From positions 1 through 22,927 of the IMG/VR virus record IMGVR_UViG_3300020178_000681: 22,927 bases of DNA; one strand, written 5' to 3'. The notes under the pieces were generated by a model. It made no database searches, had not been told where the DNA came from, and saw only the letters and a program-made list of their open reading frames with translations. Shown here one piece after another: positions 4,194 to 21,531 of the stretch. Position 1 is the first letter of the stretch. Every line of letters begins with the position of its first letter. The position numbers and the translations under genes were made by a program. Origin of the DNA: a virus.

Positions 4194-4952
4194 ATGGGTG
4201 GCAAGGTATTTGACGGCACTAGTGATTTTGATCACAATGCTATAGAACAACTATTAGATGATGTGAACAATAAAGTCCTTAAAGGAACAGGCATTGAATG
4301 TATTCCGGTTGGCAGTGCTGCTACTCCTACACCTGGTAAACGTTCGGGCGACTTAGATGTTATTGTAGATGAAAATGCTGTTATTAGTTTTTTCAACAGC
4401 AAAGATGTCAAAGAAGCAAAACAAGCACTAGCAGATTATATAAATCAAAAAGGTTATAACACAAAAGTTATTGGTACAAATGTACACGTACAAATGCCGC
4501 TTGGTACAGAAAGTCATCAGCTGGATATTATGGTTGTTTCTGATGCAGCAAACACTGCCAAGTTTCACACACATGATATTCCTCAAGGGTCTCCGTATAA
4601 AGGCATTCACAAACAACTTGCAATAAGCAAGATTGCAAAAGTAAAAGGCTTGTTGTGGAGTGCATGGAAAGGCTTGTTCAAACGCAACGAGCAAGGCAAA
4701 GCTGGTGAATTTATTACAAATGATCTCAACGAAATAGCAAAAATACTATTAGGTGATAATCGTAGTGCAGCAGACTTGGGCAGTTTAGAAAGCATACTTG
4801 CTACAATGCCACAGAATGTGCAAGACAAACTAATGGCAGAATTAGAACAAGACAGAAACTGGGGTCCTAAGACAGAAAGTGTTATCACACTAGCTGATAA
4901 AAACCACAATCGTATTGTTGAACTAATGAATAGATTGGCCGACAGTAGATGA
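4194..4952 (+). CDS. Pol-beta-type nucleotidyltransferase
   Basis: A 252-residue protein with the signature of the polymerase-beta nucleotidyltransferase superfamily: GS at 40-41, then GDLDVIVD with Asp53 and Asp55, and the third carboxylate in LDIMVV (Asp111). These three Asp bind two metal ions for transfer of a nucleotide to RNA, protein or a small molecule. The C-terminal half is helical and lysine-rich (IHKQLAISKIAKVKG), fitting nucleic-acid contact. AAGGAG lies five bases before the ATG. The stop overlaps the next gene by ATGA, so this transferase and the KxDG protein are likely made in fixed ratio. The exact reaction cannot be told. Confidence 0.8.
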   Translation: MGGKVFDGTSDFDHNAIEQLLDDVNNKVLKGTGIECIPVGSAATPTPGKRSGDLDVIVDENAVISFFNSKDVKEAKQALADYINQKGYNTKVIGTNVHVQMPLGTESHQLDIMVVSDAANTAKFHTHDIPQGSPYKGIHKQLAISKIAKVKGLLWSAWKGLFKRNEQGKAGEFITNDLNEIAKILLGDNRSAADLGSLESILATMPQNVQDKLMAELEQDRNWGPKTESVITLADKNHNRIVELMNRLADSR

Positions 4953-6082
4953 GATACAGTGAATTTAAACTAGTAGAAGCAAAGCAACTTGGTCGTGCAT
5001 TCAACCACCTCGAAGACTTGGTTTTCTTTTATGGCAGTGACGGAACTATTGAAGCACTAGAGCATTTAAAAGATGTTGCTACTGATAGCGGCAGTCAAAG
5101 TATACGTATGAAGTGGGACGGCAATCCTCAAATCTATTGGGGACGTGAGCGTAAAGGTGGACCACTTATACTTGCTGGCCACAATGCGTGGAGCAAGGGT
5201 GTAGCTGCTACTAGTGAAGAAGAAGTAGCAGACTTTATATCCAACAAAAGTGGCAATCCTAAAACACCAGAAGAAAAAGCAGCAAGAAGTCAGTTTGCAC
5301 AGAAGTTTGCAAGCATGTATGATTACTTTGATAGAGCTACTCCAAAAGACTTTGAAGGATTTGTATATGCTGATGGATTATTTTTAGATCCACCTCAAGA
5401 GAAAGATGGAGTGTACACATTCTGTCCAAATCCAAAATCACAAACTTGTTATCATGTACGTGCAAATAGTGAACTAGGCAAACGAATTGATAGAGCAAAT
5501 ATAATGGTGGTTGGACATGCGTTCTTTCCAGAGTTTGGTATGCCAGATAGTGCGCAACAACCAATGCAAGACTTTAGTATGTTTGACAACGATCCTAGTA
5601 TTGTTGTGCTAGGACCAGTTTACAACGACAAGCCAGTACAAGTTGATACAAGTGCTATTGATAATGTAGAAAACTTTTTATCACAAAATAAACAAGCCAT
5701 TGATGGATTTTTAGCAGGTGTTCCAGGACTTGCAGATTTAAAAAATATTATTTACACATACGTTAATCAAACAGCAAAAGCAAAACAACTGGATAATCTA
5801 AGTGCAGAAGATTTTTCAAACTGGTTACAAACCAGTAAAGTAAGCACAGGTAAACAAGCCAAGATTGCTGAGTTAGATTTACAGTTCAAGGGTGCTACTA
5901 GTGCTATTTTTGAACTAGTAAAAATGATACAACGTATGAAAGACGAAGTGATTGATCAAATAGAAGGTGAACAAGGTGACATTTGGGATACCAACGGTGA
6001 AGGTCGGGTACGTTATGCAGACCCTAATAAAAAGTTTGGCAATGTAAAACTTGTTCCAAGAAAAAGGTGGACACCGTCATGA
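4949..6082 (+). CDS. KxDG ligase-like protein (DUF6267 type) with capsid-leader-like N-terminus
   Basis: A 377-residue protein resembling the phage family listed as DUF6267. MKWDGNPQIYWGR has Lys55 in a KxDG motif, the mark of covalent nucleotidyltransferases such as RNA and DNA ligases, and EGFVYADGL at 136-144 may be a later ligase motif. The other ligase motifs are not clear, so activity is uncertain. The first residues, MRYSEFKLVEA, match the plan of the T4 internal-protein leader (MKTYQEFIAEA), which the prohead protease cuts at L/I-x-E before A/G. If the match is real, the protein is packed in the capsid and cut after Glu10. The gene overlaps both neighbours by ATGA. Confidence 0.75.
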   Translation: MRYSEFKLVEAKQLGRAFNHLEDLVFFYGSDGTIEALEHLKDVATDSGSQSIRMKWDGNPQIYWGRERKGGPLILAGHNAWSKGVAATSEEEVADFISNKSGNPKTPEEKAARSQFAQKFASMYDYFDRATPKDFEGFVYADGLFLDPPQEKDGVYTFCPNPKSQTCYHVRANSELGKRIDRANIMVVGHAFFPEFGMPDSAQQPMQDFSMFDNDPSIVVLGPVYNDKPVQVDTSAIDNVENFLSQNKQAIDGFLAGVPGLADLKNIIYTYVNQTAKAKQLDNLSAEDFSNWLQTSKVSTGKQAKIAELDLQFKGATSAIFELVKMIQRMKDEVIDQIEGEQGDIWDTNGEGRVRYADPNKKFGNVKLVPRKRWTPS

Positions 6083-6666
6083 GACTAAGACAACTATTTG
6101 AAGCACCAGGCGAAACAGTAGGACTTATATTTGGTAGATTCAATCCTCCACACAAAGGTCACAAAAATGCGTGGGAAATGGCCAGTCGAGAAACACATTG
6201 GTATGTAGGCACTAATCAAAGCACGGTTGGTCCTAAAGACCCATTGCCTGCACAAGCAAAAGTTGTTGCAATGGAAACTATTTGGCCTGAAGTAAAAGGA
6301 CATATTGTATTCAGTCAAAGTTGGCTAACACTTGCTAGTGAACTGTATGCAAAGCACCCTGGTGCTACATTAAAACTTTACACAGACGAAGCATGGGTTC
6401 CTAAGACCATACAGCAATACAACGGTGCAGAAGGTCCACACGGTAGTTACAACTTCAAAGATATAGAATGGGTAAAGCCGCCAAGACTTGCAAGTGCAAC
6501 CGATCTACGTGCAGCAGTGTTAAATGATGATCCAGAAGCATTTGCTAAAGCAGCAGGTGTTCCTGCTGATACGGTAGTTGATATTCCAGGCAAGAATGTA
6601 ACTTTCTTTGAACTAGTTAAAAAGTATTTAGATCCACATCGCGAAAAACTTCTTGCTAAAAAATAA
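6079..6666 (+). CDS. NMN/cytidylyl-transferase-like protein with capsid-leader-like N-terminus
   Basis: A 195-residue HxGH-type nucleotidyltransferase. GLIFGRFNPPHKGH gives the HKGH motif, and SATDLRAAV near the C-terminal third matches the second ATP-binding motif (ISSTxIR in NMN adenylyltransferases). Family members make NAD or other nucleotide-linked products. The ATG at 6079 is preferred over 6067 because it forms an ATGA overlap with the upstream stop and follows GGTGG at a normal distance. The protein then opens MRLRQLFEAPGE, where LFE-A again fits a T4 prohead-protease site. A role in keeping NAD up during infection is plausible but unproven. Confidence 0.78.
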   Translation: MRLRQLFEAPGETVGLIFGRFNPPHKGHKNAWEMASRETHWYVGTNQSTVGPKDPLPAQAKVVAMETIWPEVKGHIVFSQSWLTLASELYAKHPGATLKLYTDEAWVPKTIQQYNGAEGPHGSYNFKDIEWVKPPRLASATDLRAAVLNDDPEAFAKAAGVPADTVVDIPGKNVTFFELVKKYLDPHREKLLAKK

Positions 6667-6687: not shown

Positions 6688-7878
6688 ATGTACAAATGTT
6701 ATTTCCTATTGGACAATATTCTAGAATCTCCGTATGAGCCAATCTCTATAAAGTTGCCCGGATCAAGGCTTCATTCAATGCCGCTGGACTATCTACTAGG
6801 ACATTTTGACGATTTTAACTACAGAAACTTTTTTCATATAAGTCGAATAGAACTATTAGATACACAGACACCAAAGTTTATTGTTAATGTAATACATATG
6901 CCCAACTGGGTAGATACAAATCTATCAAAAGATGGTATTGATTTATTAAAAAATGATCCTAATGTTTATTTGTGCTTGATAACTACATTAGAAGGTGTAC
7001 TAGATACAAAGGCACTAGCAAATGAGTTAAACAGTAAAGAAATACCATTACACAAAGTTGTTGTTATGACTAGTAATATGCAGGCTCACGGAAATAAACT
7101 GGATGGTGTAAACTATATTTGTGTTAACTTTTGGGAAAGTATTACTAGGCTTCATCATCAGACGTTGCCCGATATTAGTGTAACTACACCTAAGCAACTT
7201 TCAATAAATACAGCAGAAAAAAAGTTTTTGTGTTTGAATAGGAATATAAAGCCTCATCGTATATGGCTAATGTACAGTCTATTGCGTAGTAATATAATCA
7301 ATGAAGGACATGTAAGTTTTAACCTTCCTAGTGTTGATCGTAGAGAATTTTATGTGTGTGCTAGATCGCATCATACACTAAAACGTATTCCAGAATCTCT
7401 CCACAGCGACTACAAAATGGCATTGGTTAGAGAAATGTATAATCGTAAACTAGACCCATTGCACAATCACCATGTAATAAACTATAACTCTAGTATCAAG
7501 TCTTACTACAATGACAGTTTGTTGAGTGTAATAACCGAAAGCGATACTAGTCTCAACTTTATTACAGAAAAAACTTACAAGGCTATAATGAATCTTCATC
7601 CGTTTTTTATTGTTGGCAACCCTGATCAACATGCATTACTTCGAGCTAGAGGCTATCATACTTTTGAAGATTTGTTTGGAGTTGATCAGATTACCAACTA
7701 TGCAGAAGCATCGAAAATGTGGAAACACATCGGTAGTAAAAATATAGATGTATTAAAACAAAACATCAAGAAAAAATATTTAGATAAATTAATACATAAC
7801 CAGCAGTTATTTCTTTCAAGGAAGATTAGTTGGAATGACATAACAGACAATCTTATAACAGCAATAGGTGATACTTGA
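6688..7878 (+). CDS. Glycosyltransferase-like protein
   Basis: A 396-residue protein. The C-terminal half carries SVITESDTSLNFITEKTYKA followed by HPFFIVG (about 280-310), the pattern of a GT-B nucleotide-sugar site in fucosyltransferase-like and related phage enzymes, where the EKT(Y/F)K segment contacts the donor. Before it, KKFLCLNRNIKPHR (178-191) is also common in this group. The N-terminal half is not recognised. No signal peptide is seen, so it should act in the cytoplasm. It heads the radical SAM operon, has no Shine-Dalgarno, and its stop overlaps the next gene by TTGA. The sugar donor and acceptor are unknown. Confidence 0.65.
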   Translation: MYKCYFLLDNILESPYEPISIKLPGSRLHSMPLDYLLGHFDDFNYRNFFHISRIELLDTQTPKFIVNVIHMPNWVDTNLSKDGIDLLKNDPNVYLCLITTLEGVLDTKALANELNSKEIPLHKVVVMTSNMQAHGNKLDGVNYICVNFWESITRLHHQTLPDISVTTPKQLSINTAEKKFLCLNRNIKPHRIWLMYSLLRSNIINEGHVSFNLPSVDRREFYVCARSHHTLKRIPESLHSDYKMALVREMYNRKLDPLHNHHVINYNSSIKSYYNDSLLSVITESDTSLNFITEKTYKAIMNLHPFFIVGNPDQHALLRARGYHTFEDLFGVDQITNYAEASKMWKHIGSKNIDVLKQNIKKKYLDKLIHNQQLFLSRKISWNDITDNLITAIGDT

Positions 7879-9086
7879 CCCAAGATTTTAAAAAACATTT
7901 TTGCATGGCGCCATGGACACACATGAGCGTATGGCAAAACGGTGATGCATATCCTTGTTGTATATACCACTGGGATATGCCTATTGGTAACATCAACGAA
8001 GCTGGGTTTAAAGGTGCATGGAACAGTGAAAAGATGCGTGACCTGCGTATGCGTATGTTGAATAATGAGCCAAGTGAAGGATGTAAAAAATGTATCAACT
8101 ATGACGCACAAGGTATTATTAGTTATAGACACAAGTTTAACACAGAGTATAACCATCACTTTAACTTAGTAGAAACAACCAGTGACGACGGCAGTGTTGA
8201 GCAAATGAATCTTGCATATTTTGATGTAAGGTTTAGCAATCTATGCAACATGAAATGTCGTAGTTGTGGTCCACATTTCAGCAGCAAGTGGGCAGAAGAC
8301 ATTTCTGGTAAGCCCGAAGTAGTAGAAATCAATCATCCAGAGATGTGGTCTGAGATTGAAGAAATGTTGCCCACTATCGAAGAAGTTTATTTTACTGGTG
8401 GCGAAAGCCTGTTTATGGAGCAGCATTACAGACTGCTGGATATGCTTATAGAGCGTGGACTCAAACCGAGATTAACATACAACAGCAATGCTAGTAGATT
8501 GAGCCTCAAAGGCAAACACATAAAAGACTATTGGCAGCACTTTGATAAAATATTCTTTTGTGTGAGTTGTGATCAAATCGGTGCCAAAGCAGAGTACACA
8601 CGCAATGGACAAAAGTGGAGTACAGTATTTGATAACTTGTGCTGGATACGTGATAACTTTGAACACAGCTATGACAAGGGTGTAGTTATACAACCAAATC
8701 CTACTATTAGTGTATTAAACATATTAGATTTGCGTAAGATTATCAACTTCCTGTTTGAACACAATATACCCACCGACTACGATATCAATCTCAGCAACTT
8801 GCTAGTTGGACCTGATTGGTTGAGTATAACAATACTTCCTGATCACATAAAACAACTGGCTAAAGAAAACATAATATTATTAAAAGAAGATATTGATAAG
8901 TTGAATATGTATCCACAACGCAAAGAGTTTTTGCACACAGGACTAGACAATATCATAAACTTCATGTATAGTAAAGATGACACACATTTGATTCCTGCAT
9001 TTAGGAATGAAATGCAAAAAATAGATTTAAAACGTGGTGAAAACTTTCTCAACGTATTTCCAGAACTAAAGGACTTGTATGTCTAA
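7875..9086 (+). CDS. Radical SAM protein with N-terminal twitch domain (copy 1)
   Basis: A 403-residue enzyme. An auxiliary Cys set comes first: C10, C28-C29, C70 and C73, with PIGNINEAGF and a WNS motif between. The radical SAM motif CNMKCRSC follows at 124-131 and binds the 4Fe-4S cluster that cleaves SAM; TGGES at 174-178 contacts SAM. The C-terminus ends in a shared signature (LKRGENFLNVFPEL). The start is TTG, forming TTGA with the upstream stop, with AGGTG five bases before. Its closest relative here is the next gene, which has the same layout and length, so they are tandem duplicates. The substrate is unknown. Of its 23 serines, 12 use AGT, 9 AGC and 2 TCT by my hand count. Confidence 0.88.
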   Translation: MTQDFKKHFCMAPWTHMSVWQNGDAYPCCIYHWDMPIGNINEAGFKGAWNSEKMRDLRMRMLNNEPSEGCKKCINYDAQGIISYRHKFNTEYNHHFNLVETTSDDGSVEQMNLAYFDVRFSNLCNMKCRSCGPHFSSKWAEDISGKPEVVEINHPEMWSEIEEMLPTIEEVYFTGGESLFMEQHYRLLDMLIERGLKPRLTYNSNASRLSLKGKHIKDYWQHFDKIFFCVSCDQIGAKAEYTRNGQKWSTVFDNLCWIRDNFEHSYDKGVVIQPNPTISVLNILDLRKIINFLFEHNIPTDYDINLSNLLVGPDWLSITILPDHIKQLAKENIILLKEDIDKLNMYPQRKEFLHTGLDNIINFMYSKDDTHLIPAFRNEMQKIDLKRGENFLNVFPELKDLYV

Positions 9087-10287
9087 ACAACTTAAAAACA
9101 GCAAACACTTTTGTATGATGCCTTGGGTGCATATGCATTTGTGGCCTGCTGGCACAACATATCCATGTTGTATGAGTGATCCAGAGTTTCCTATTGGAAA
9201 TACACAAGAGCAGAGTTTGCAAGAAATATGGAACGGCAAAGAACTACGCAATATACGTATGAACATGCTACAGGACAAGCCAAGCAAAGAATGTAGACGT
9301 TGCTACGAACTAGAAGAAAACGGCATGGGTACATTGCGTACCGGTAGTATTGGAAACTATGCACATCATTGGGACAAAGTTGAAGCAACTAGTGATGATG
9401 GTAGTGCAGGCGATGTTAACATGGCATATATGGACATACGCTTTAGTAATCTTTGCAATCTCAAATGTCGCAGTTGTGGTCCACAGTTTAGCAGCAGTTG
9501 GTTTGAAGATCACAAAGTAACACACGGCGACCCAGGACATCCTAAGATACTCCAAGTACGTGATGAAATGAAAAGTTTTATGGACGAGCTTGATCCGTTG
9601 TTGGAAAGTGTAGAACGTGTGTACTGGGCTGGCGGAGAACCTCTTATTACCAAAGAGCATTACAACATACTTGACAAATGGATTGCTATGGGCAAACGTG
9701 ATGTTAGTATGGATTATACTACAAACTTTACACAAATGTATTACAAAAAGAAAACAGCATTTGATTATTGGAATAAGTTTGAAAATGTTAGAGTAGCTGG
9801 TAGTTTAGATGCCAATCATGCTAGAGGTGAATACTTGCGTAAAAATATGGTGTGGAGTGAAGTTGTACAAAACAGACGCACAATGATAGAACAATGCCCA
9901 CATGTGTATTTTGAACTAACACCTACTGTGAGTGTGTACAACGTGCTTAACCTGCCTGACTTTCACAAGGAATGGATTGAAGAAGGATTGTTAGAGCCTT
10001 CTAATATACGTATCAACATATTGTTGGATCCTACATATATGCGTTTGAGTATATTGCCTCCGTGGATTAAATCTAAAGTTGCTGAAAGATATTCAGAACA
10101 TATTGCATACCTAAAGCAGTTTGATAATATTGCAGGTGTTATAAACGATTATGAAAGTATTTTAAACTTTATGGAAAAAGACCGCACAAACGAAATAAAA
10201 ATGTTTAAGTTTAAAACACAACGTATAGACACTCTAAGACAGGAAAACTTACTAGATGTATTTCCAGAACTAGAAGGTATTTGGTAA
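9079..10287 (+). CDS. Radical SAM protein with N-terminal twitch domain (copy 2)
   Basis: A 402-residue paralogue of the previous gene. The auxiliary cysteines are C12, C30-C31, C72 and C75; the radical SAM motif is CNLKCRSC at 126-133; AGGEP at 184-188 is the SAM-binding GGE motif. The segment around RFSNLC...RSCGP is nearly the same as copy 1, while the substrate-side C-terminal half differs more, which suggests related chemistry on a different substrate or step. The tail TLRQENLLDVFPELEG matches the tail of copy 1. The ATG lies 8 bases inside copy 1. The next gene starts on its last base. Confidence 0.88.
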   Translation: MSKQLKNSKHFCMMPWVHMHLWPAGTTYPCCMSDPEFPIGNTQEQSLQEIWNGKELRNIRMNMLQDKPSKECRRCYELEENGMGTLRTGSIGNYAHHWDKVEATSDDGSAGDVNMAYMDIRFSNLCNLKCRSCGPQFSSSWFEDHKVTHGDPGHPKILQVRDEMKSFMDELDPLLESVERVYWAGGEPLITKEHYNILDKWIAMGKRDVSMDYTTNFTQMYYKKKTAFDYWNKFENVRVAGSLDANHARGEYLRKNMVWSEVVQNRRTMIEQCPHVYFELTPTVSVYNVLNLPDFHKEWIEEGLLEPSNIRINILLDPTYMRLSILPPWIKSKVAERYSEHIAYLKQFDNIAGVINDYESILNFMEKDRTNEIKMFKFKTQRIDTLRQENLLDVFPELEGIW

Positions 10288-12455
10288 TGGGATTTTTTGA
10301 AAAAAGAGAAGTTGATCCAAACAGAGAAATACCCATAAAGCCAACGGGTACATTAGCCGAAGATAAACACACTGCTACACTTGCTGCTATTGCAAAGTAC
10401 AGCAAACCTGTACAAAAAGGTTTAGAAAATCTTGAAATAGAATACAAAGTTAATAGACAGACTAGACTGTGTATGTGTTTGTTGCCAGAATGGGATCCTA
10501 GTTTTCCACCTTACAATACAGCAAAACTTGCTAGTGCTGTAAAACGTGCAGGTTATGCTTGTAAAAGTTTTGATATAAATGTAGAAGCATACAATAGATT
10601 TCACAATGAAAAATGGCCTATTGATTTTGATCCTTGGGATCCACTACGTGACTGGCACTGGCTTGAAGAACATTATTACAAAGATATTCACCCACATCTA
10701 AAACCTATACTAGATGAAAAGATCGATGAGATAGTTGAGTTTGCACCAGATGTGGTTGGTTTTACACTGTACTATTGCAACGAAGCGCCTACAAAGTATG
10801 TAGCAGAACAACTGAAAAAGCGTATGCCAAATGTTCTAATCATGGTTGGCGGCCCTAGTACTCATGCTAGTTATTACAAGGGCGACGATTTATTTGATTA
10901 TGTAGTAAACGGCGAAGGTGAACAACCATTATTGCTTGCACTAGAAAGCATAGAAAAAAAGCAAGGTGTTCAATACAACGAAAAAGAAAAAAGTATGATT
11001 ATCCGGCAGCCTGAAAATCAGCGCTATAATCTAAGTACGTTGCCACTGCCTGACTACAGCGATTTTGACTTTAGCAAGTACAAGTTTCCAAATGGTGCAT
11101 TGTGTGAAATATCAAGAGGCTGTATTGCCAAGTGTACGTTCTGCGAAGAAACACACTTTTGGAAATATAGGCAGCGTAATGCACTTAGCACACTCAATGA
11201 GATTGAACATATGTACTATGAACATGGTACTAATGTATTTTGGTTTATTGATAGTTTGGTAAATGGTAATCTAAATGAACTGCGTGGATTTGTAAAAGGA
11301 GTTGCCGAAAAAGGACTAGAGATACATTGGACTGGTTATTGTAGATGTGATGGTAGAATGGATGCTGAATACTACAAAGATCTAAAAGCAGGCGGATGCG
11401 AAGTTCTTAACTATGGTATTGAAAGCGGCAGTCAAGTTGTACTAGATGCTATGGATAAAAAAGTTACTGTACCAGAAATGGAAGCCAACTTTAGAGATGG
11501 CTATGCAGCTGGCATTGATGCAATGACCAACTGGATTGTAGGCTATCCTAACGAAGGACATAAAGAACTTGAAGACACTCTTACTTTTATGTATAGAGTA
11601 CGCAATCAAGGACTTATTGCAATCAGTCAAGGTACAGGATTTAGTGTAGGTGTAGACACCATTGTAGGACAAAACTTTGACAAGTTTAATCTGTCACCGT
11701 TTTACTATTACGATCATTGGATTACAAAAGATTATAAAATGAGTATTGTACACAAACTCATACGTATGAAAACTTTTAGTATTTTTACAGACTTACTAAA
11801 AACAGAAAAAGTTTGCAGCAAGCCAACTCGTCCTAACTTGGCCAAGTTTCATTATGATATCAAGTTTGATAATCCTGATAACGAGTTTGATATTGAATAC
11901 GATTATGATGACTTTGATTATAATATTATCAAGCCAGGCATTAGTAACTTTGCTGATAGTTTGGTAAATGAGATCTGGCCATTTTTAAGAATAGTATGGC
12001 GCACAAAAGGTGCATATAAACTACATTTAAAGTTCCGCAAAGAATGGGAATATGAAGAATGGGGAGAGCGTAATGCTGCTCCATTGGATGCTGACTATAT
12101 ATTTGAAATAACAGATGATGGCAAATGGACTGCTGACTTTAAATGGAAATATCAACAAGACGAATACAGTGATTGGGAAGACAAGTACTGGATTGAAAAT
12201 GGTGCAATGCAAATGAGTCCAGATCCTTCGAGCCCTGTTTGGAGTATTATGGATTTCACCCGAGATAATAGCAATGCAGTTATTAGAGCACGTAAACTTG
12301 CATGGAAAGGTGATGCAGAGAAAAAGTCTAAAGATCCTTACAATGCTTATGATTTTAAAAAGTTTAAGCAAGACGAAAAAAACTTTATAAGTGTACGTAA
12401 TATAGACTTTAGTTTTGAATATGAATGGCAGGGCAAAGGAGACTGGAGTGAGTAA
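10287..12455 (+). CDS. B12-binding-type radical SAM enzyme with long C-terminal extension
   Basis: A 722-residue protein, the largest in the window. Residues about 60-225 look like a cobalamin-binding Rossmann domain: PPYNTAKLASAVKRAGY, DVVGFTLYYCNEAPT, LIMVGGPSTHASYY and VVNGEGEQPLLLALE. The classical DxHxxG cobalt-ligand motif is absent, as in several relatives. The radical SAM motif is CIAKCTFC at 279-286. Relatives do methylations, ring formations and other difficult C-C bond steps. The last 200 or so residues are rich in Asp, Glu, Trp, Tyr and Lys and I cannot place them in a known domain. ATG at 10287 (TAATG overlap with the previous stop) is chosen over an in-frame TTG at 10281. Confidence 0.85.
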   Translation: MGFFEKREVDPNREIPIKPTGTLAEDKHTATLAAIAKYSKPVQKGLENLEIEYKVNRQTRLCMCLLPEWDPSFPPYNTAKLASAVKRAGYACKSFDINVEAYNRFHNEKWPIDFDPWDPLRDWHWLEEHYYKDIHPHLKPILDEKIDEIVEFAPDVVGFTLYYCNEAPTKYVAEQLKKRMPNVLIMVGGPSTHASYYKGDDLFDYVVNGEGEQPLLLALESIEKKQGVQYNEKEKSMIIRQPENQRYNLSTLPLPDYSDFDFSKYKFPNGALCEISRGCIAKCTFCEETHFWKYRQRNALSTLNEIEHMYYEHGTNVFWFIDSLVNGNLNELRGFVKGVAEKGLEIHWTGYCRCDGRMDAEYYKDLKAGGCEVLNYGIESGSQVVLDAMDKKVTVPEMEANFRDGYAAGIDAMTNWIVGYPNEGHKELEDTLTFMYRVRNQGLIAISQGTGFSVGVDTIVGQNFDKFNLSPFYYYDHWITKDYKMSIVHKLIRMKTFSIFTDLLKTEKVCSKPTRPNLAKFHYDIKFDNPDNEFDIEYDYDDFDYNIIKPGISNFADSLVNEIWPFLRIVWRTKGAYKLHLKFRKEWEYEEWGERNAAPLDADYIFEITDDGKWTADFKWKYQQDEYSDWEDKYWIENGAMQMSPDPSSPVWSIMDFTRDNSNAVIRARKLAWKGDAEKKSKDPYNAYDFKKFKQDEKNFISVRNIDFSFEYEWQGKGDWSE

Positions 12456-13656
12456 TACATATTGCGTATACCCGTTTATAAACGTACACACTAACACCGA
12501 TGGTAGATGTAAACTATGCTGCCATGTGTACAGTGAAGACTATATTCAAGTAGATGGCAAAGATGCTGTACTAGGTAAAACTGACTGGTGGAACATTTGG
12601 AACGGGCAATACATGCTGGATGTTCGTGCAAAGATGCTGGCCGGTGGCAAAGTTAAAGAATGCAATCGCTGCTACGAACACGAAGAAAAAGGTTTAGAAA
12701 GCAGCAGACAATGGGCCAACAAAACATATCGTGCATCTGTAACACACGGCAACCCTACACACTTAGAACTACGATTAGGTAATCATTGTAACCTAAAGTG
12801 TAACAGTTGTTGGAGTGTGAGTAGTGATCAGATTTACAAAGAACGTAAGAAGATACTTGCTAAAGAGTCTGTACCTAAGTGGTTAGATGACCAATGGCAA
12901 CACGAGATTAAAAGTGTAGAGGAACACGATTGGGCATGGTACGAAACTCAGGAGTTTCGTGACTTTGTAGATCAAGTTGCACCTACATTAGAACGACTGT
13001 ACATGACAGGTGGTGAGCCTACACTGATACAAGCAAATCAGTATGTATTGGACAAACTAGTAGAAGCTGGTAATACAAAATGTCATGTAGCATGGACAAC
13101 CAATATGACTACATGGCCAGAAGGGTTTTATGACAAACTAGATTTTTTTGACACTAGTGAAATACAGATGAGCATTGACGGTTATGGTGATCATAACATG
13201 TACATACGCTATCCAACTGATTGGAACAAGGTAGAAGAAAACTTTGACAAAGCAATGAAGTTGCCTGAAAAAGTACAACTAAAGATTTACTTTGTGTATC
13301 AAGCATGGAATGTGTTTGATGTTGACAAACTAATACGTTGGCTAGAACAAAAGCAAACAAGGCGTGTGGACTTTGTTCCTATTTTCTTAGAACATCCTGA
13401 TCAACTGCACAGTTGTGTATGGCCTAGAGAACTACAGCATAATATCATTGGAAAACTAATGATGCTGGATACAAAGCTACACCAAGATGCTGTTCAAAGA
13501 ATCATTAACTACACACAGAATACTAATAAATATTCAGCAGAGAACCTCATGAGAATGAAACAGTTCATTAGTATCAATGATAGATATCGCAAGTATAAGT
13601 TTGCAGATATTTTTCCATTACTAAATGACATATTGGAAACAGAATGCAAGAAATAA
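12448..13656 (+). CDS. Radical SAM protein with N-terminal twitch domain (copy 3)
   Basis: A 402-residue enzyme of the same plan as copies 1 and 2: auxiliary C6, C21, C24-C25, C72 and C75, radical SAM CNLKCNSC at 114-121, and TGGEP at 187-191. It is more diverged, with an insertion rich in Trp, Glu and Asp between the cluster motif and GGE. A C-terminal tail (DRYRKYKFADIFPLL) is a weaker version of the shared signature. The start is GTG at 12448: AAGGAG lies six bases upstream and the start overlaps the previous stop by 8 bases. A longer reading from TTG at 12415 would add 11 residues inside the previous gene and has no ribosome site. Confidence 0.86.
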   Translation: MSNTYCVYPFINVHTNTDGRCKLCCHVYSEDYIQVDGKDAVLGKTDWWNIWNGQYMLDVRAKMLAGGKVKECNRCYEHEEKGLESSRQWANKTYRASVTHGNPTHLELRLGNHCNLKCNSCWSVSSDQIYKERKKILAKESVPKWLDDQWQHEIKSVEEHDWAWYETQEFRDFVDQVAPTLERLYMTGGEPTLIQANQYVLDKLVEAGNTKCHVAWTTNMTTWPEGFYDKLDFFDTSEIQMSIDGYGDHNMYIRYPTDWNKVEENFDKAMKLPEKVQLKIYFVYQAWNVFDVDKLIRWLEQKQTRRVDFVPIFLEHPDQLHSCVWPRELQHNIIGKLMMLDTKLHQDAVQRIINYTQNTNKYSAENLMRMKQFISINDRYRKYKFADIFPLLNDILETECKK

Positions 13657-14636
13657 AAGCTATTTTACCAGCTAAAGACAAATGGGTAAGCCTAGTATGG
13701 CAAGTCAACGATTGGTGCAACTTTCGTTGTACATATTGCAGCGAATGGAACTGGGCAGGACGTAATAAAAACGATACAGATATTCCGTTGATTGTTGATA
13801 CACTTGAGCGTATTATGTTACATTATAAAGCCAAAGGTTACAAGTATTTTAAACTGTATCTCAGCGGAGGCGAACCTACATTTTGGAAGGCACTTATTCC
13901 TGTTGTAGAAAAGTTTAGAGAACATGCTGAATGGCCTGGTAGTTGTGTAGGTATCAACACCAACTTTAGTAAGCCACTAAGCTGGTGGAAGGATCATCAT
14001 CACTTGTTCGAAGATGTTGTTGCTAGTTATCATGCAGAATGGAGCAAAGACGACAAGTACATGGATGTTTACAAGTTCTTACAAGATAAGAAAAACTATT
14101 TGTGTAGTCGTATTATGATGCATCACGATCATTTTGAACAGTGTATGGCATTTGGCGACAGAATAAAAAATGAGTGTGACAACTATATGATTGAGTATGC
14201 ACCAGTCTATGACGAGTTACGTCCTAGCACAGATCCGTATCATTATGACGAACCGTGGCAGATGGAGTTTTTTCAAACTAATAGTACAGTACAACAGCAG
14301 AGTATTCCTATAAAAAAAGATCCTAGTTATGCTTGGGCAAAAGTACAATACGAAGATGATACTATAGAACCTATTGATACAAACGGCATCATTACAAACG
14401 GTAAAAACTTCTTTAAAGGTTGGTTGTGCAATATACACGAAAGTTTGCACATTCATCCTAATGGTAAAATACAACAAGCAAGTTGTGGAGTAGGACCAGT
14501 TGTTGGAAATATTGTACAAGGCGAGTTTAATACTACAATGAGTGAAGGAGTGTGGTGTCCTAAATCACATTGTCATTGTGCAGCAGACTTTAATATTAGT
14601 AAAGCAAGGCCAGAATATGCAAAACAAATTAGATAA
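13644..14636 (+). CDS. Radical SAM protein with C-terminal SPASM-like cysteines
   Basis: A 330-residue enzyme with the ordinary domain order, unlike its neighbours. The radical SAM motif CNFRCTYC is near the start (25-32), SGGEPTF follows at 74-80, and a C-terminal set C262, C281, C305, C310 and C312 with HPNGK and GN.VQGEF segments looks like a SPASM or twitch auxiliary-cluster domain. SPASM enzymes often modify peptides or proteins, but some act on sugars or nucleotides. It lacks the C-terminal FPEL-type tail of the twitch copies. The ATG lies 13 bases inside the previous gene and the next gene starts 20 bases before its stop. Confidence 0.85.
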   Translation: MQEIKAILPAKDKWVSLVWQVNDWCNFRCTYCSEWNWAGRNKNDTDIPLIVDTLERIMLHYKAKGYKYFKLYLSGGEPTFWKALIPVVEKFREHAEWPGSCVGINTNFSKPLSWWKDHHHLFEDVVASYHAEWSKDDKYMDVYKFLQDKKNYLCSRIMMHHDHFEQCMAFGDRIKNECDNYMIEYAPVYDELRPSTDPYHYDEPWQMEFFQTNSTVQQQSIPIKKDPSYAWAKVQYEDDTIEPIDTNGIITNGKNFFKGWLCNIHESLHIHPNGKIQQASCGVGPVVGNIVQGEFNTTMSEGVWCPKSHCHCAADFNISKARPEYAKQIR

Positions 14637-15954
14637 ACTACCAAAAAACTTTTGTTACTTTAGTATGCAAGGATACAGCACACATTCGCATGGACGTACT
14701 AGACCATGTTGTTTTAGTAGAGTAGAAACTAATGCATACATGCCAGGTGTTGATGTAGATTCAGTTCCTTATTGGAAGGAACATCATAACTGGAATAGTC
14801 CTGATCTTGAAGATTTTATCAACGATCCAAAAGCCAAAGAAATACGCAAGCAACTACTAAATGACGAAGTTCCAGACGGATGTCGTAGTTGTTTCGAACT
14901 TGAAGATCAAGGCATACGCAGTTTTAGACAAACATGGAATGAAATATACGAAGATCAAATAGACACAACTTTAAAGCATGTTGATAATGAAGGACATTTA
15001 GATGCACAGGCTGTTACGTACTTGGATATCAGTTTGGGAAATATTTGTAACCTAAAGTGTAGAAGTTGCAATCCGTGGGCAAGTCATCGATGGATAGAAG
15101 AAGGACCTACAGTGCCACACACTGATTGGGATGACACAGCATATATGATTGCCAAAATGAGCAGTGACAAGCCTTGGTTTATTAAAGCATTTGCTGAAGG
15201 ATTTTTTGATGAAGTACTGCCTAATGTAAAAGTTATTAACTTTATAGGTGGCGAGCCATTAGTAGTCGAAGAACACTATGCTTGGTTAGAACACATAGTC
15301 GATCAAGGTTGGAGTAAGGATATTGAGCTCCATTATAATACTAATGGTACAACTATACCCGATAGACTATTAGCTATCTGGGATAAGTTTAAAGGTGTTA
15401 TATTAAGTTTGAGTATAGATGCTATAGGTGATCTTGCATACTATGTTAGACATCCTACCAAATGGAAAATAATAGAAAAGAATACAAAAAAACTAGCAGA
15501 GTTTAGTCGCACACGCAAAGGTGTTCTTGTGCATACACACGTTACACTTAGTTTGCTAAACTTGCATGACTTGCCCAACTTGTTGGATTGGTGCAAACAC
15601 CAATATGATACGTGGCACTATGAATGGGATTGGGGCAACTATGGTTATCAAAACTGTCTGCCGCATTTTAACATTGTAGATTTTCCACGTCACTTGAATA
15701 TACGAAACTTACCCGAAGATCGCAAAGTGTTGATGAACAAAATGTTGGAAGAGCAACATCTCAAATACAAAAATGCCAAGTTGCCGGATTGGGAGCAGTG
15801 GGCAGTTGAAAACATTATCAACTTAAAAAATATTCTAAATCAGCCACAAGATGAAACAGACTGGAAACACTTTATTGATAATACCAATGCTAGTGACAAG
15901 TTTAGAAAACTCGATATTGTTGAATATATTCCGTGGATGGAGAAATATTTTTGA
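14617..15954 (+). CDS. Radical SAM protein with N-terminal twitch domain (copy 4)
   Basis: A 445-residue enzyme. Auxiliary cysteines are C13, C31-C32, C89 and C92; the radical SAM motif is CNLKCRSC at 144-151; GGEP is at 211-214 in INFIGGEPLVVEEH. The ATG at 14617 is preferred because it follows an AAGG site and gives the conserved opening of the family (LPKNFCYFS, as HFCMAPW in copy 1); an in-frame GTG/ATG region further up would only add residues inside the previous gene. It is longer than the other copies because of inserts before and after the GGE motif. The tail KFRKLDIVEYIPWMEKYF again resembles the shared C-terminal signature. The stop overlaps the next start by TTGA. Confidence 0.87.
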   Translation: MQNKLDKLPKNFCYFSMQGYSTHSHGRTRPCCFSRVETNAYMPGVDVDSVPYWKEHHNWNSPDLEDFINDPKAKEIRKQLLNDEVPDGCRSCFELEDQGIRSFRQTWNEIYEDQIDTTLKHVDNEGHLDAQAVTYLDISLGNICNLKCRSCNPWASHRWIEEGPTVPHTDWDDTAYMIAKMSSDKPWFIKAFAEGFFDEVLPNVKVINFIGGEPLVVEEHYAWLEHIVDQGWSKDIELHYNTNGTTIPDRLLAIWDKFKGVILSLSIDAIGDLAYYVRHPTKWKIIEKNTKKLAEFSRTRKGVLVHTHVTLSLLNLHDLPNLLDWCKHQYDTWHYEWDWGNYGYQNCLPHFNIVDFPRHLNIRNLPEDRKVLMNKMLEEQHLKYKNAKLPDWEQWAVENIINLKNILNQPQDETDWKHFIDNTNASDKFRKLDIVEYIPWMEKYF

Positions 15955-21000: not shown

Positions 21001-21531
21001 ATGAAAACTAATCTAACTCAAAAACAACTAGATCAACTTGCAGAGCTTATCACATTCAGTGAGAACGAAGACGGAACTTTGTTTATTAAAGACATCAAAG
21101 GCACTGTCTATGGTGATATCTACGGCAATGTTAAAGGCAATGTTGAAGGTGACGTAGGCGGTTATGTTGGAGGTGATGTCAACGGTGATGTCCACAATAA
21201 TGTCTTAGGTGATATTGTAGGTGATGTCAAAGGCAATGTCGAGGGTGATGTCAAAGGCACTGTCGGAGGTAGTGTCTGTGGTGATGTCGAAGGTGATATC
21301 TATGGTAATGTCAACGGAAATGTCCACGATAATGTCTTAGGTGATATTGTAGGTTATGTTGGAGGTGATGTTGAAGGTATTATCTTTGGCAATGTCGAGG
21401 GTGATGTTAGAGGCAATGTCGGAGGTAGTGTCTACGGTGATGTTTTATGCAACGTCAAAGGTAATGTTTGGGGTGATGTAAAAGGTAATGTCGAAGGTAT
21501 TGTCTGTGGTAATGTTAAAGGAGAAACATAA
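21001..21531 (+). CDS. Protein made of 35 GxVx tetrapeptide repeats
   Basis: A 176-residue protein. The first 33 residues are a small non-repeat head (LTQKQLDQLAELITF, then GTLFIKDI). From residue 34 to 173 there are 35 consecutive four-residue units of the form G-(D/N/T/S/Y)-(V/I)-x, broken only by three units that start with N, D or C. Such a pattern should form a narrow beta-solenoid or stacked beta structure, with the Val/Ile inside and Gly at turns. A longer period of 44 residues is also visible (HNNVLGDIVG and HDNVLGDIVG). GGTGGAG precedes the ATG. Possible roles are a fibre, a scaffold or a DNA mimic; sequence alone does not decide. Confidence 0.7.
   Translation: MKTNLTQKQLDQLAELITFSENEDGTLFIKDIKGTVYGDIYGNVKGNVEGDVGGYVGGDVNGDVHNNVLGDIVGDVKGNVEGDVKGTVGGSVCGDVEGDIYGNVNGNVHDNVLGDIVGYVGGDVEGIIFGNVEGDVRGNVGGSVYGDVLCNVKGNVWGDVKGNVEGIVCGNVKGET
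21100..21519 (+). repeat. 12-base tandem repeats with a 132-base higher period
   Basis: Thirty-five in-frame 12-base units of GGTGATGTC type encode the tetrapeptides. The block TCCACAATAATGTCTTAGGT at 21191 recurs 132 bases later at 21323 with one change, showing duplication of an 11-unit segment. Copy number could change by slippage or recombination without shifting the frame. Confidence 0.85.

Follow-up and report, generated by a model that had tools for sequence, protein, structure and literature searches.

The internal proteins (IPs) of phage T4 carry N-terminal propeptides of 10–19 amino acids (aa), ten N-terminal residues of IPIII being enough for packaging, and the T4 protease gp21 cleaves after L/I-X-E (PMC9026906). 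The T4 enzyme Alt also lies in the head core and is trimmed by the prohead protease (PMC9026906). In cyanophages, NMNAT-like cytidylyltransferases (S-SM1, S-SCSM1, S-SZBM1, S-CREM2; T4-GC190) were detected in virions by mass spectrometry. Here we describe two neighbouring genes of the IMG/VR virus record IMGVR_UViG_3300020178_000681, the whole 22.9-kb stretch of which is called the window below. They encode a DUF6267 protein and an HxGH nucleotidyltransferase-like protein, and a 36-kb IMG/VR contig has identical copies of both (100%). Each protein begins with a short putative leader of the T4 capsid-targeting type, MRYSEFKLVE↓AKQLGR and MRLRQLFE↓APGETVG, respectively (arrows mark predicted or known cleavage sites). 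The features are as follows.

4949-6082, plus strand: DUF6267 open reading frame, ATG start, MRYSEFKLVEAKQLGR
4949..4978, plus strand: putative DUF6267 leader MRYSEFKLVE, capsid-targeting type, predicted gp21 cut between Glu10 and Ala11
4979..6082, plus strand: predicted mature DUF6267 body, 367 aa, with covalent-nucleotidyltransferase-like motifs (PF19782, AlphaFold2 model)
5111..5122, plus strand: motif I, K55-W-D-G58; no change of K55, D57 or G58 in 56 sequences reaching ~20% identity
5372..5374, plus strand: Asp142, motif III-like, invariant
5999..6010, plus strand: motif IV-like E351-G-x-V354; E351, G352 and V354 invariant
6047..6049, plus strand: Lys367, motif V-like (VKLV), invariant
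6079-6666, plus strand: HxGH open reading frame, ATG at 6079, MRLRQLFEAPGETVG, stop at 6666
6079..6102, plus strand: putative leader MRLRQLFE of the HxGH protein, capsid-targeting type, predicted gp21 cut between Glu8 and Ala9
6103..6666, plus strand: predicted mature body of the HxGH nucleotidyltransferase, 187 aa (TIGR00125, phrog_3041, Foldseek)
6151..6162, plus strand: HxGH motif H25-K-G-H28; G27 and H28 invariant in alignment A2, H25 invariant in alignment A4
6493..6510, plus strand: SATDLR, presumably equivalent to (S)SxTxxR of NMNAT-type enzymes; alignment A2 has S139 and R144 invariant

We suggest that both proteins are likely to be internal (cargo) proteins of the head of a marine T4-like phage, whose leaders are capsid-targeting propeptides removed by a gp21-type protease, with the enzymes staying in the head and probably being injected. 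In the proposed mechanism the 10 N-terminal residues of DUF6267 and the 8 N-terminal residues of the HxGH protein would bind the prohead core during assembly. A gp21-type prohead protease would then cleave L-V-E↓A and L-F-E↓A behind their Glu. The trimmed enzymes would stay beside the DNA in the head and would probably enter the host together with it at injection. Core binding and cutting would follow from what is known of T4; the packaging of DUF6267 itself and the injection we infer.

The window leaders share with those of T4 IPI, IPII and IPIII (MKTYQEFIAE↓A) the N-terminal position, the small size, the basic residue near the start and the L/I-x-E↓A junction, and some leaders of the cyanophage homologues are nearly an IP leader (MKSYKEFLSE↓A, MKKFSAFLNE↓A). 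They differ in beginning with MR(Y/L). The T4 IPs are small, basic proteins with no known enzyme folds, whereas the cargo proposed here consists of two conserved enzyme-like proteins. Alt resembles the proposed cargo in being an enzyme of the head core; it is an injected ADP-ribosyltransferase of an unrelated family and is trimmed at its C-terminus too. The cyanophage virion proteins have a homologous HxGH body together with a leader, but in most of them both the N-terminal linker and the C-terminal region are longer, and their host is cyanobacterial. The passages concerned of the cyanophage proteome papers do not mention the leader.

Relatives were gathered from IMG/VR (80 DUF6267 and 32 HxGH loci), and a later, deeper set comprised 80 loci obtained with an alignment query and extending to ~20% identity, in which some contigs recur. 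The DUF6267 body starts with KQLGRAFNHLEDLVFF, which is nearly invariant in close relatives, and the leader preceding it varies in length and sequence (MRYQELIE↓A, MRFLEFRTITE↓A, MRLREFFIKE↓ADVP, MRAFEFLNE↓ADAP). Of the distinct leaders, 44 of 47 in DUF6267 and 38 of 40 in the HxGH protein keep the junction [LIVF]-x-E; among the three DUF6267 exceptions is one whose start was mis-picked and which fits the motif too. Distant DUF6267 members with the body KNTHLEHLED also have the motif (MLKFSSFLTE↓D, MITFKDFLLE↓S, MQSFKQYLKE↓D, MKLFEIRQTPPRWLILE↓G). Overall, leader length (6 to ~50 aa) and inserts differ, and nearly everything but the hydrophobic P3 and the P1 Glu is variable. Glu8 of the HxGH protein is invariant in an alignment that includes the virion-detected S-SM1 homologue. 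As a positive control in T4, ipII, ipIII, gp22 and gp24 are picked up once P1' of the pattern is relaxed slightly. The strict pattern misses the leaders of the relative G002 (MRFLEFNQTLTE↓K in DUF6267 and MILRQLFE↓S in the HxGH protein) and thus under-counts. The sequence-only reading, made earlier from the letters of the window, had claimed a match to the T4 leader in length and cleavage context. The cleavage context is borne out by these counts; the length agrees for DUF6267 (10 aa) and does not for the HxGH protein, whose 8 aa fall short of the 10–19 aa of T4. The coordinates, the leader sequences and the KxDG and HxGH motifs that it gave were confirmed, the motifs as K55-W-D-G58 and H25-K-G-H28.

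The AlphaFold2 model of DUF6267 has a mean predicted local distance difference test (pLDDT) score of 92, and the sole segment below 50 is residues 1-10, i.e. the leader. In the model of the HxGH protein (mean pLDDT 91) residues 1-10 average 52 and nearly all the rest exceeds 85. The leaders, as modelled, lie outside the folded enzyme domains. Both models have a short helical turn at residues 3-7.

Published virion proteomes provide the next line of evidence. According to Sullivan et al. 2010 (PMC3037559), the ‘citidylyltransferase’ T4-GC190 was detected in S-SM1 virions and had gone undetected in those of S-PM2; T4-GC190 of P-SSM2 matches the window HxGH protein with E 4e-8. The studies of S-CREM2 (PMC10665884), S-SCSM1 (PMC9602691) and S-SZBM1 (PMC9146016) report the HxGH homologue in virions as well. 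All four virion-detected homologues start with a leader: MKKFSAFLNE↓AERS in S-SM1, MKNFSSFLTE↓ADEK in S-CREM2, MKSFLQFLKE↓AAES in S-SCSM1 and MRFRQFIIE↓AVAA in S-SZBM1. In S-PM2 the HxGH homologue is fused to DUF6267, and the fusion protein starts with MATQNKHLEHLEDE and has no leader. In S-SZBM1 a leaderless DUF6267, S-SZBM1_141 (MAKNTHLEHLEDD), adjoins the detected HxGH protein and is not mentioned among the 30 identified virion proteins. This natural comparison in S-PM2 and S-SZBM1 fits the view that the leader decides packaging, with few cases and differing detection limits. The presence in virions proposed for both proteins by the sequence-only reading is seen in published proteomes for the HxGH homologue only. 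In the open-licence literature we found no paper linking cyanophages and capsid targeting sequences, save one T4 review mentioning both, and no paper naming DUF6267.

The machinery for such processing is encoded by relatives. Both gp21 (PF03420) and gp23 are present in G001, G002 and G003 (153–176 kb) and in the isolates Melnitz, P-SSM2 and S-CAM9, and a gp22-type core protein is also encoded in near-complete relatives. In the Methylophilales phage Melnitz leaders are carried by both DUF6267 (MINFSKYITE↓D) and the HxGH protein (MKKFSEIIE↓A). The gp23 proteins of relatives have L-x-E aligned with FLTE↓A of T4 (FLSE↓A, FLNE↓A, YLSE↓S, YLSE↓T). The sequence-only reading had put forward a search for gp21 and for further leader proteins as a check. 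Leader proteins cluster near the DNA polymerase gene gp43: 6 of the 13 leader-pattern matches of G001 fall in a 9-kb cluster (83.9–92.7 kb) directly before it, and G006, whose radical-SAM neighbourhood is like that of the window, has three further leader proteins before gp43. The gp21 gene was found in the near-complete relatives, and neither in the window nor in its sister fragments. The packaging-leader reading is well supported by motif conservation, by gp21 in near-complete relatives, by other leader proteins in the same clusters and by the virion-detected leader-bearing HxGH homologues. We note that some close relatives have an extra leader protein, (M)RYREIIKE↓ASYNNWDH, between DUF6267 and the HxGH gene (17965-18492 of L154 in G004; 49967-50506 of G011).

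Several observations weigh against head packaging. No gp21 was found in the window, in 17 medium-sized contigs or in G004/G006, and no gp23 in the window or G004/G006, all of which are fragments. The T4-type late promoter TATAAATA matches the window once, ahead of the DNA ligase gene, and not before the two genes and their upstream neighbour (the cassette), so late expression is unsupported. P1' is not always Ala/Gly, and T, S, D, E, K, N and Q are seen. Homologues without the leader, which the sequence-only reading had named as evidence against itself, occur for DUF6267 in S-CAM9, S-SM1, Syn9 and S-SZBM1 and for both genes in L036 and L092; the two leaderless forms that can be checked, the S-PM2 fusion and S-SZBM1_141, were not found in virions. 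Virion detection is limited to HxGH homologues, all of them from cyanophages. It could also be carry-over, of which the S-CREM2 authors warn for CsCl preparations (PMC10665884). L036 and L092 form a sub-lineage in which both leaders are lost and the DUF6267 and HxGH genes are still adjacent, and it could serve as a natural control for packaging. This joint loss was discarded as a test of linkage: cyanophages have a leaderless DUF6267 beside a leader-bearing HxGH protein, and the two leaders are not strictly coupled.

It is extremely improbable that the leaders are ordinary variable N-termini in which Glu happens to be frequent. The motif is short, and the simple leader pattern is met by 0.5–1.1% of internal start codons by chance. 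However, the site lies no more than 8 residues from the body in 51 of 59 leaders of the de-replicated deep set, against 19.3 ± 3.4 (maximum 32) in 2000 shuffles of the same residues. This comparison serves as a guide and yields no formal probability, since related sequences are not independent, although the set does span ~20–97% identity. The invariance of Glu8 from the window phage to cyanophages and the motif on every virion-detected homologue also speak against coincidence. Alternatively, the leaders might bind the scaffold or another phage protein and stay uncut, the Glu being part of an interaction helix. LF/LI-x-E is plausible as an amphipathic contact, and the helical turn in the models suits a binding peptide, but the variation in length and in nearly all other positions is more easily reconciled with a protease site than with a fixed interface, and the motif is the same as in T4 gp23, gp22, gp24 and the IPs; we regard this explanation as very unlikely.

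It is also unlikely, if less so, that the HxGH protein alone is packaged, with the DUF6267 leader marking a core-associated assembly factor that is not packaged or is degraded, and with DUF6267 acting in the infected cell. Such a division would agree with the virion evidence, confined as it is to HxGH homologues, with the frequent leaderless DUF6267 of cyanophages and with the missing S-SZBM1_141. Against it, the checkable DUF6267 forms that escaped virion detection are leaderless, and the leader-bearing DUF6267 keeps its cleavage Glu even at ~20% body identity, which would be needless if it were uncut. We retain the packaging of both proteins as the preferred explanation.

The bodies behind the leaders resemble nucleotidyl-transfer enzymes to different degrees. 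DUF6267, a family present in >400 phage records, is recognized in the window protein by PF19782 with E 3.5e-17 and 63.3 bits (curated Pfam cut-off 27), and all 56 members of alignment A3 match it. K55-x-D57-G58, D142, E351-G352-x-V354 and K367 are kept without exception in these 56 sequences and are the same in the cyanophage and Melnitz homologues. In covalent nucleotidyltransferases (DNA/RNA ligases, capping enzymes) KxDG, Asp, EGxV and K succeed one another as motifs I, III, IV and V, and the invariant residues of DUF6267 stand in that same order. Unlike in those enzymes, ~200 residues separate the equivalents of motifs III and IV, and the DUF6267 model has no significant match among PDB folds (none at E < 0.2) despite its high pLDDT. 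A sequence search of solved structures gave nothing relevant, and viral RNA ligases appear among the DUF6267 matches weakly, at E 0.05–0.13. Given the outcome of the PDB fold search, we do not claim a ligase fold. The ‘KxDG ligase-like’ description has the support of the motif set and not that of the fold; judged by its motifs, DUF6267 plausibly works like a ligase.

The HxGH protein has the features of its superfamily, namely the HxGH and C-terminal S-x-x-x-x-R motifs and a Rossmann-type fold, and its description as ‘HxGH adenylyltransferase-like’ was borne out by motif and fold. TIGR00125 matches at E 7.8e-6, just under the cut-off, and the PHROG matches are phrog_3041 and phrog_395 (‘cytidyltransferase’), the former with E 3e-13. 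In Foldseek the nearest solved folds are NadD, NMNAT and phosphopantetheine adenylyltransferase (PPAT), with E 1e-5 to 1e-4. The fold is equally near NadD, NadM and PPAT, and NMNAT equivalog scores are far below the cut-offs. G27, H28, S139 and R144 remain invariant in alignment A2 with cyanophages included.

DUF6267 and the HxGH protein probably act as one nucleotidyl-transfer unit, because their adjacency is conserved and they are fused in S-PM2. The S-PM2 fusion, p141/p142, joins DUF6267 and HxGH in 591 aa; the newer record has it as one open reading frame, and a frameshift divides it in the older one (L266, 19026-20805; L268, 486-2261).

What the enzymes would do in the host is a further matter, which adds to packaging and does not compete with it. 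That, once injected, they counter host defence by mending cleaved RNA and restoring NAD is speculation, and rather unlikely. It is in keeping with the NadD/NMNAT/PPAT-like fold, the ligase-type motif set and the S-PM2 fusion; many myoviruses are thought to package NAD-related enzymes (PMC9503650), and a NAD role is proposed by the authors of the S-CREM2 (PMC10665884) and S-SCSM1 (PMC9602691) studies. On the other side, DUF6267 lacks a PDB fold match, and the identity of the HxGH protein as an NMNAT reaches the superfamily level only.

The cassette consists of three genes in head-to-tail overlap (4194-4952, 4949-6082, 6079-6666), with an ATGA overlap with the preceding gene at the start of both the DUF6267 and the HxGH gene. 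For the latter the list of open reading frames gives a GTG start at 6067, an alternative upstream of the ATG at 6079. The remaining member is the following.

4194..4952, plus strand: PolB-type nucleotidyltransferase-like protein GSAATPTPGKRSGDLDV, upstream gene of the cassette, assigned from sequence, with no leader in the window

This protein has no Pfam, PHROG or NCBIfam match above cut-off. The window lineage starts M-GG, whereas many relatives start MILLE↓GG, MILVE↓GG or MILNE↓GG (N-termini of 21 relatives; L015, L040, L058, L063-L078), possibly a minimal cleavable leader of 5 aa. An uncharacterised protein, S-CREM2 gp156 (L272, 8013-8726), which was detected in virions, has a PolB-type nucleotidyltransferase motif (GGNANYNYTPYSDIDLHLVV) and recalls this cassette member.

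A basic Cys/His module of ~35 aa, W-S-x-K-Y-K-x-S-I-[ND]-C-[SN]-[NH]-P-K-G-F-S-Q-[KR]-A-H-C-[AQ]-G-[RK]-K-K, occurs in otherwise unrelated phage proteins, usually right behind an acidic site, [LIVF]xE of the leader type or one like it. It is carried by L161 (G006), L169, L034, L067, L106, L185, L137 (9939-10661) and the DUF6267 proteins of L052-L059, L064 and L074-L076, and is found once alone in a 42-aa protein, MKIREIISE↓KWSEKYKKSINCSNPKGFSQKAHCAGRKKRKK. The copies in DUF6267 have a second cleavage-like site, NESVNE↓AE, behind the module. The module looks like a mobile packaged peptide.

Beyond the cassette, the product of 6688-7878 (MYKCYFLLDNILES) matches a loose leader pattern; the match was judged to be chance, the N-terminus being unlike the leaders and the G004/G006 counterparts starting otherwise. 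Six consecutive radical-SAM-type genes follow the cassette at 7875-15954, with conservation in G004 and G006 and, in part, in L092; one of them has a match to NF033640, a twitch-domain family, at E 4e-109 and one has a B12-binding domain. The 176-aa open reading frame at 21001-21531 consists almost entirely of G-[DN]-V type repeats (GDVYGNVKGNVEGDV...), and its product is possibly a beta-helix-like repeat protein.

We suggest that the locus is best read as new cargo of a packaging system already known from T4. An NMNAT-like enzyme has been found repeatedly in cyanophage particles, and the proteomics papers could not separate cargo from contamination. Because each detected version bears a packaging-type leader and the undetected counterparts bear none, this question becomes directly testable. 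DUF6267, a family with no known function, is nominated as a cargo that would be injected and work together with the HxGH enzyme. We tentatively propose, as one possibility, that marine and freshwater T4-like phages possess a modular injected arsenal, in which interchangeable leaders (leader and cargo, or leader, basic Cys/His peptide and cargo with a second cleavage site) may load a conserved nucleotidyl-transfer machine into the head. This machine, the ligase-like DUF6267 with the HxGH enzyme and sometimes the PolB-type nucleotidyltransferase, might target nucleic acid, of the host or the phage, or cofactors at the very start of infection.

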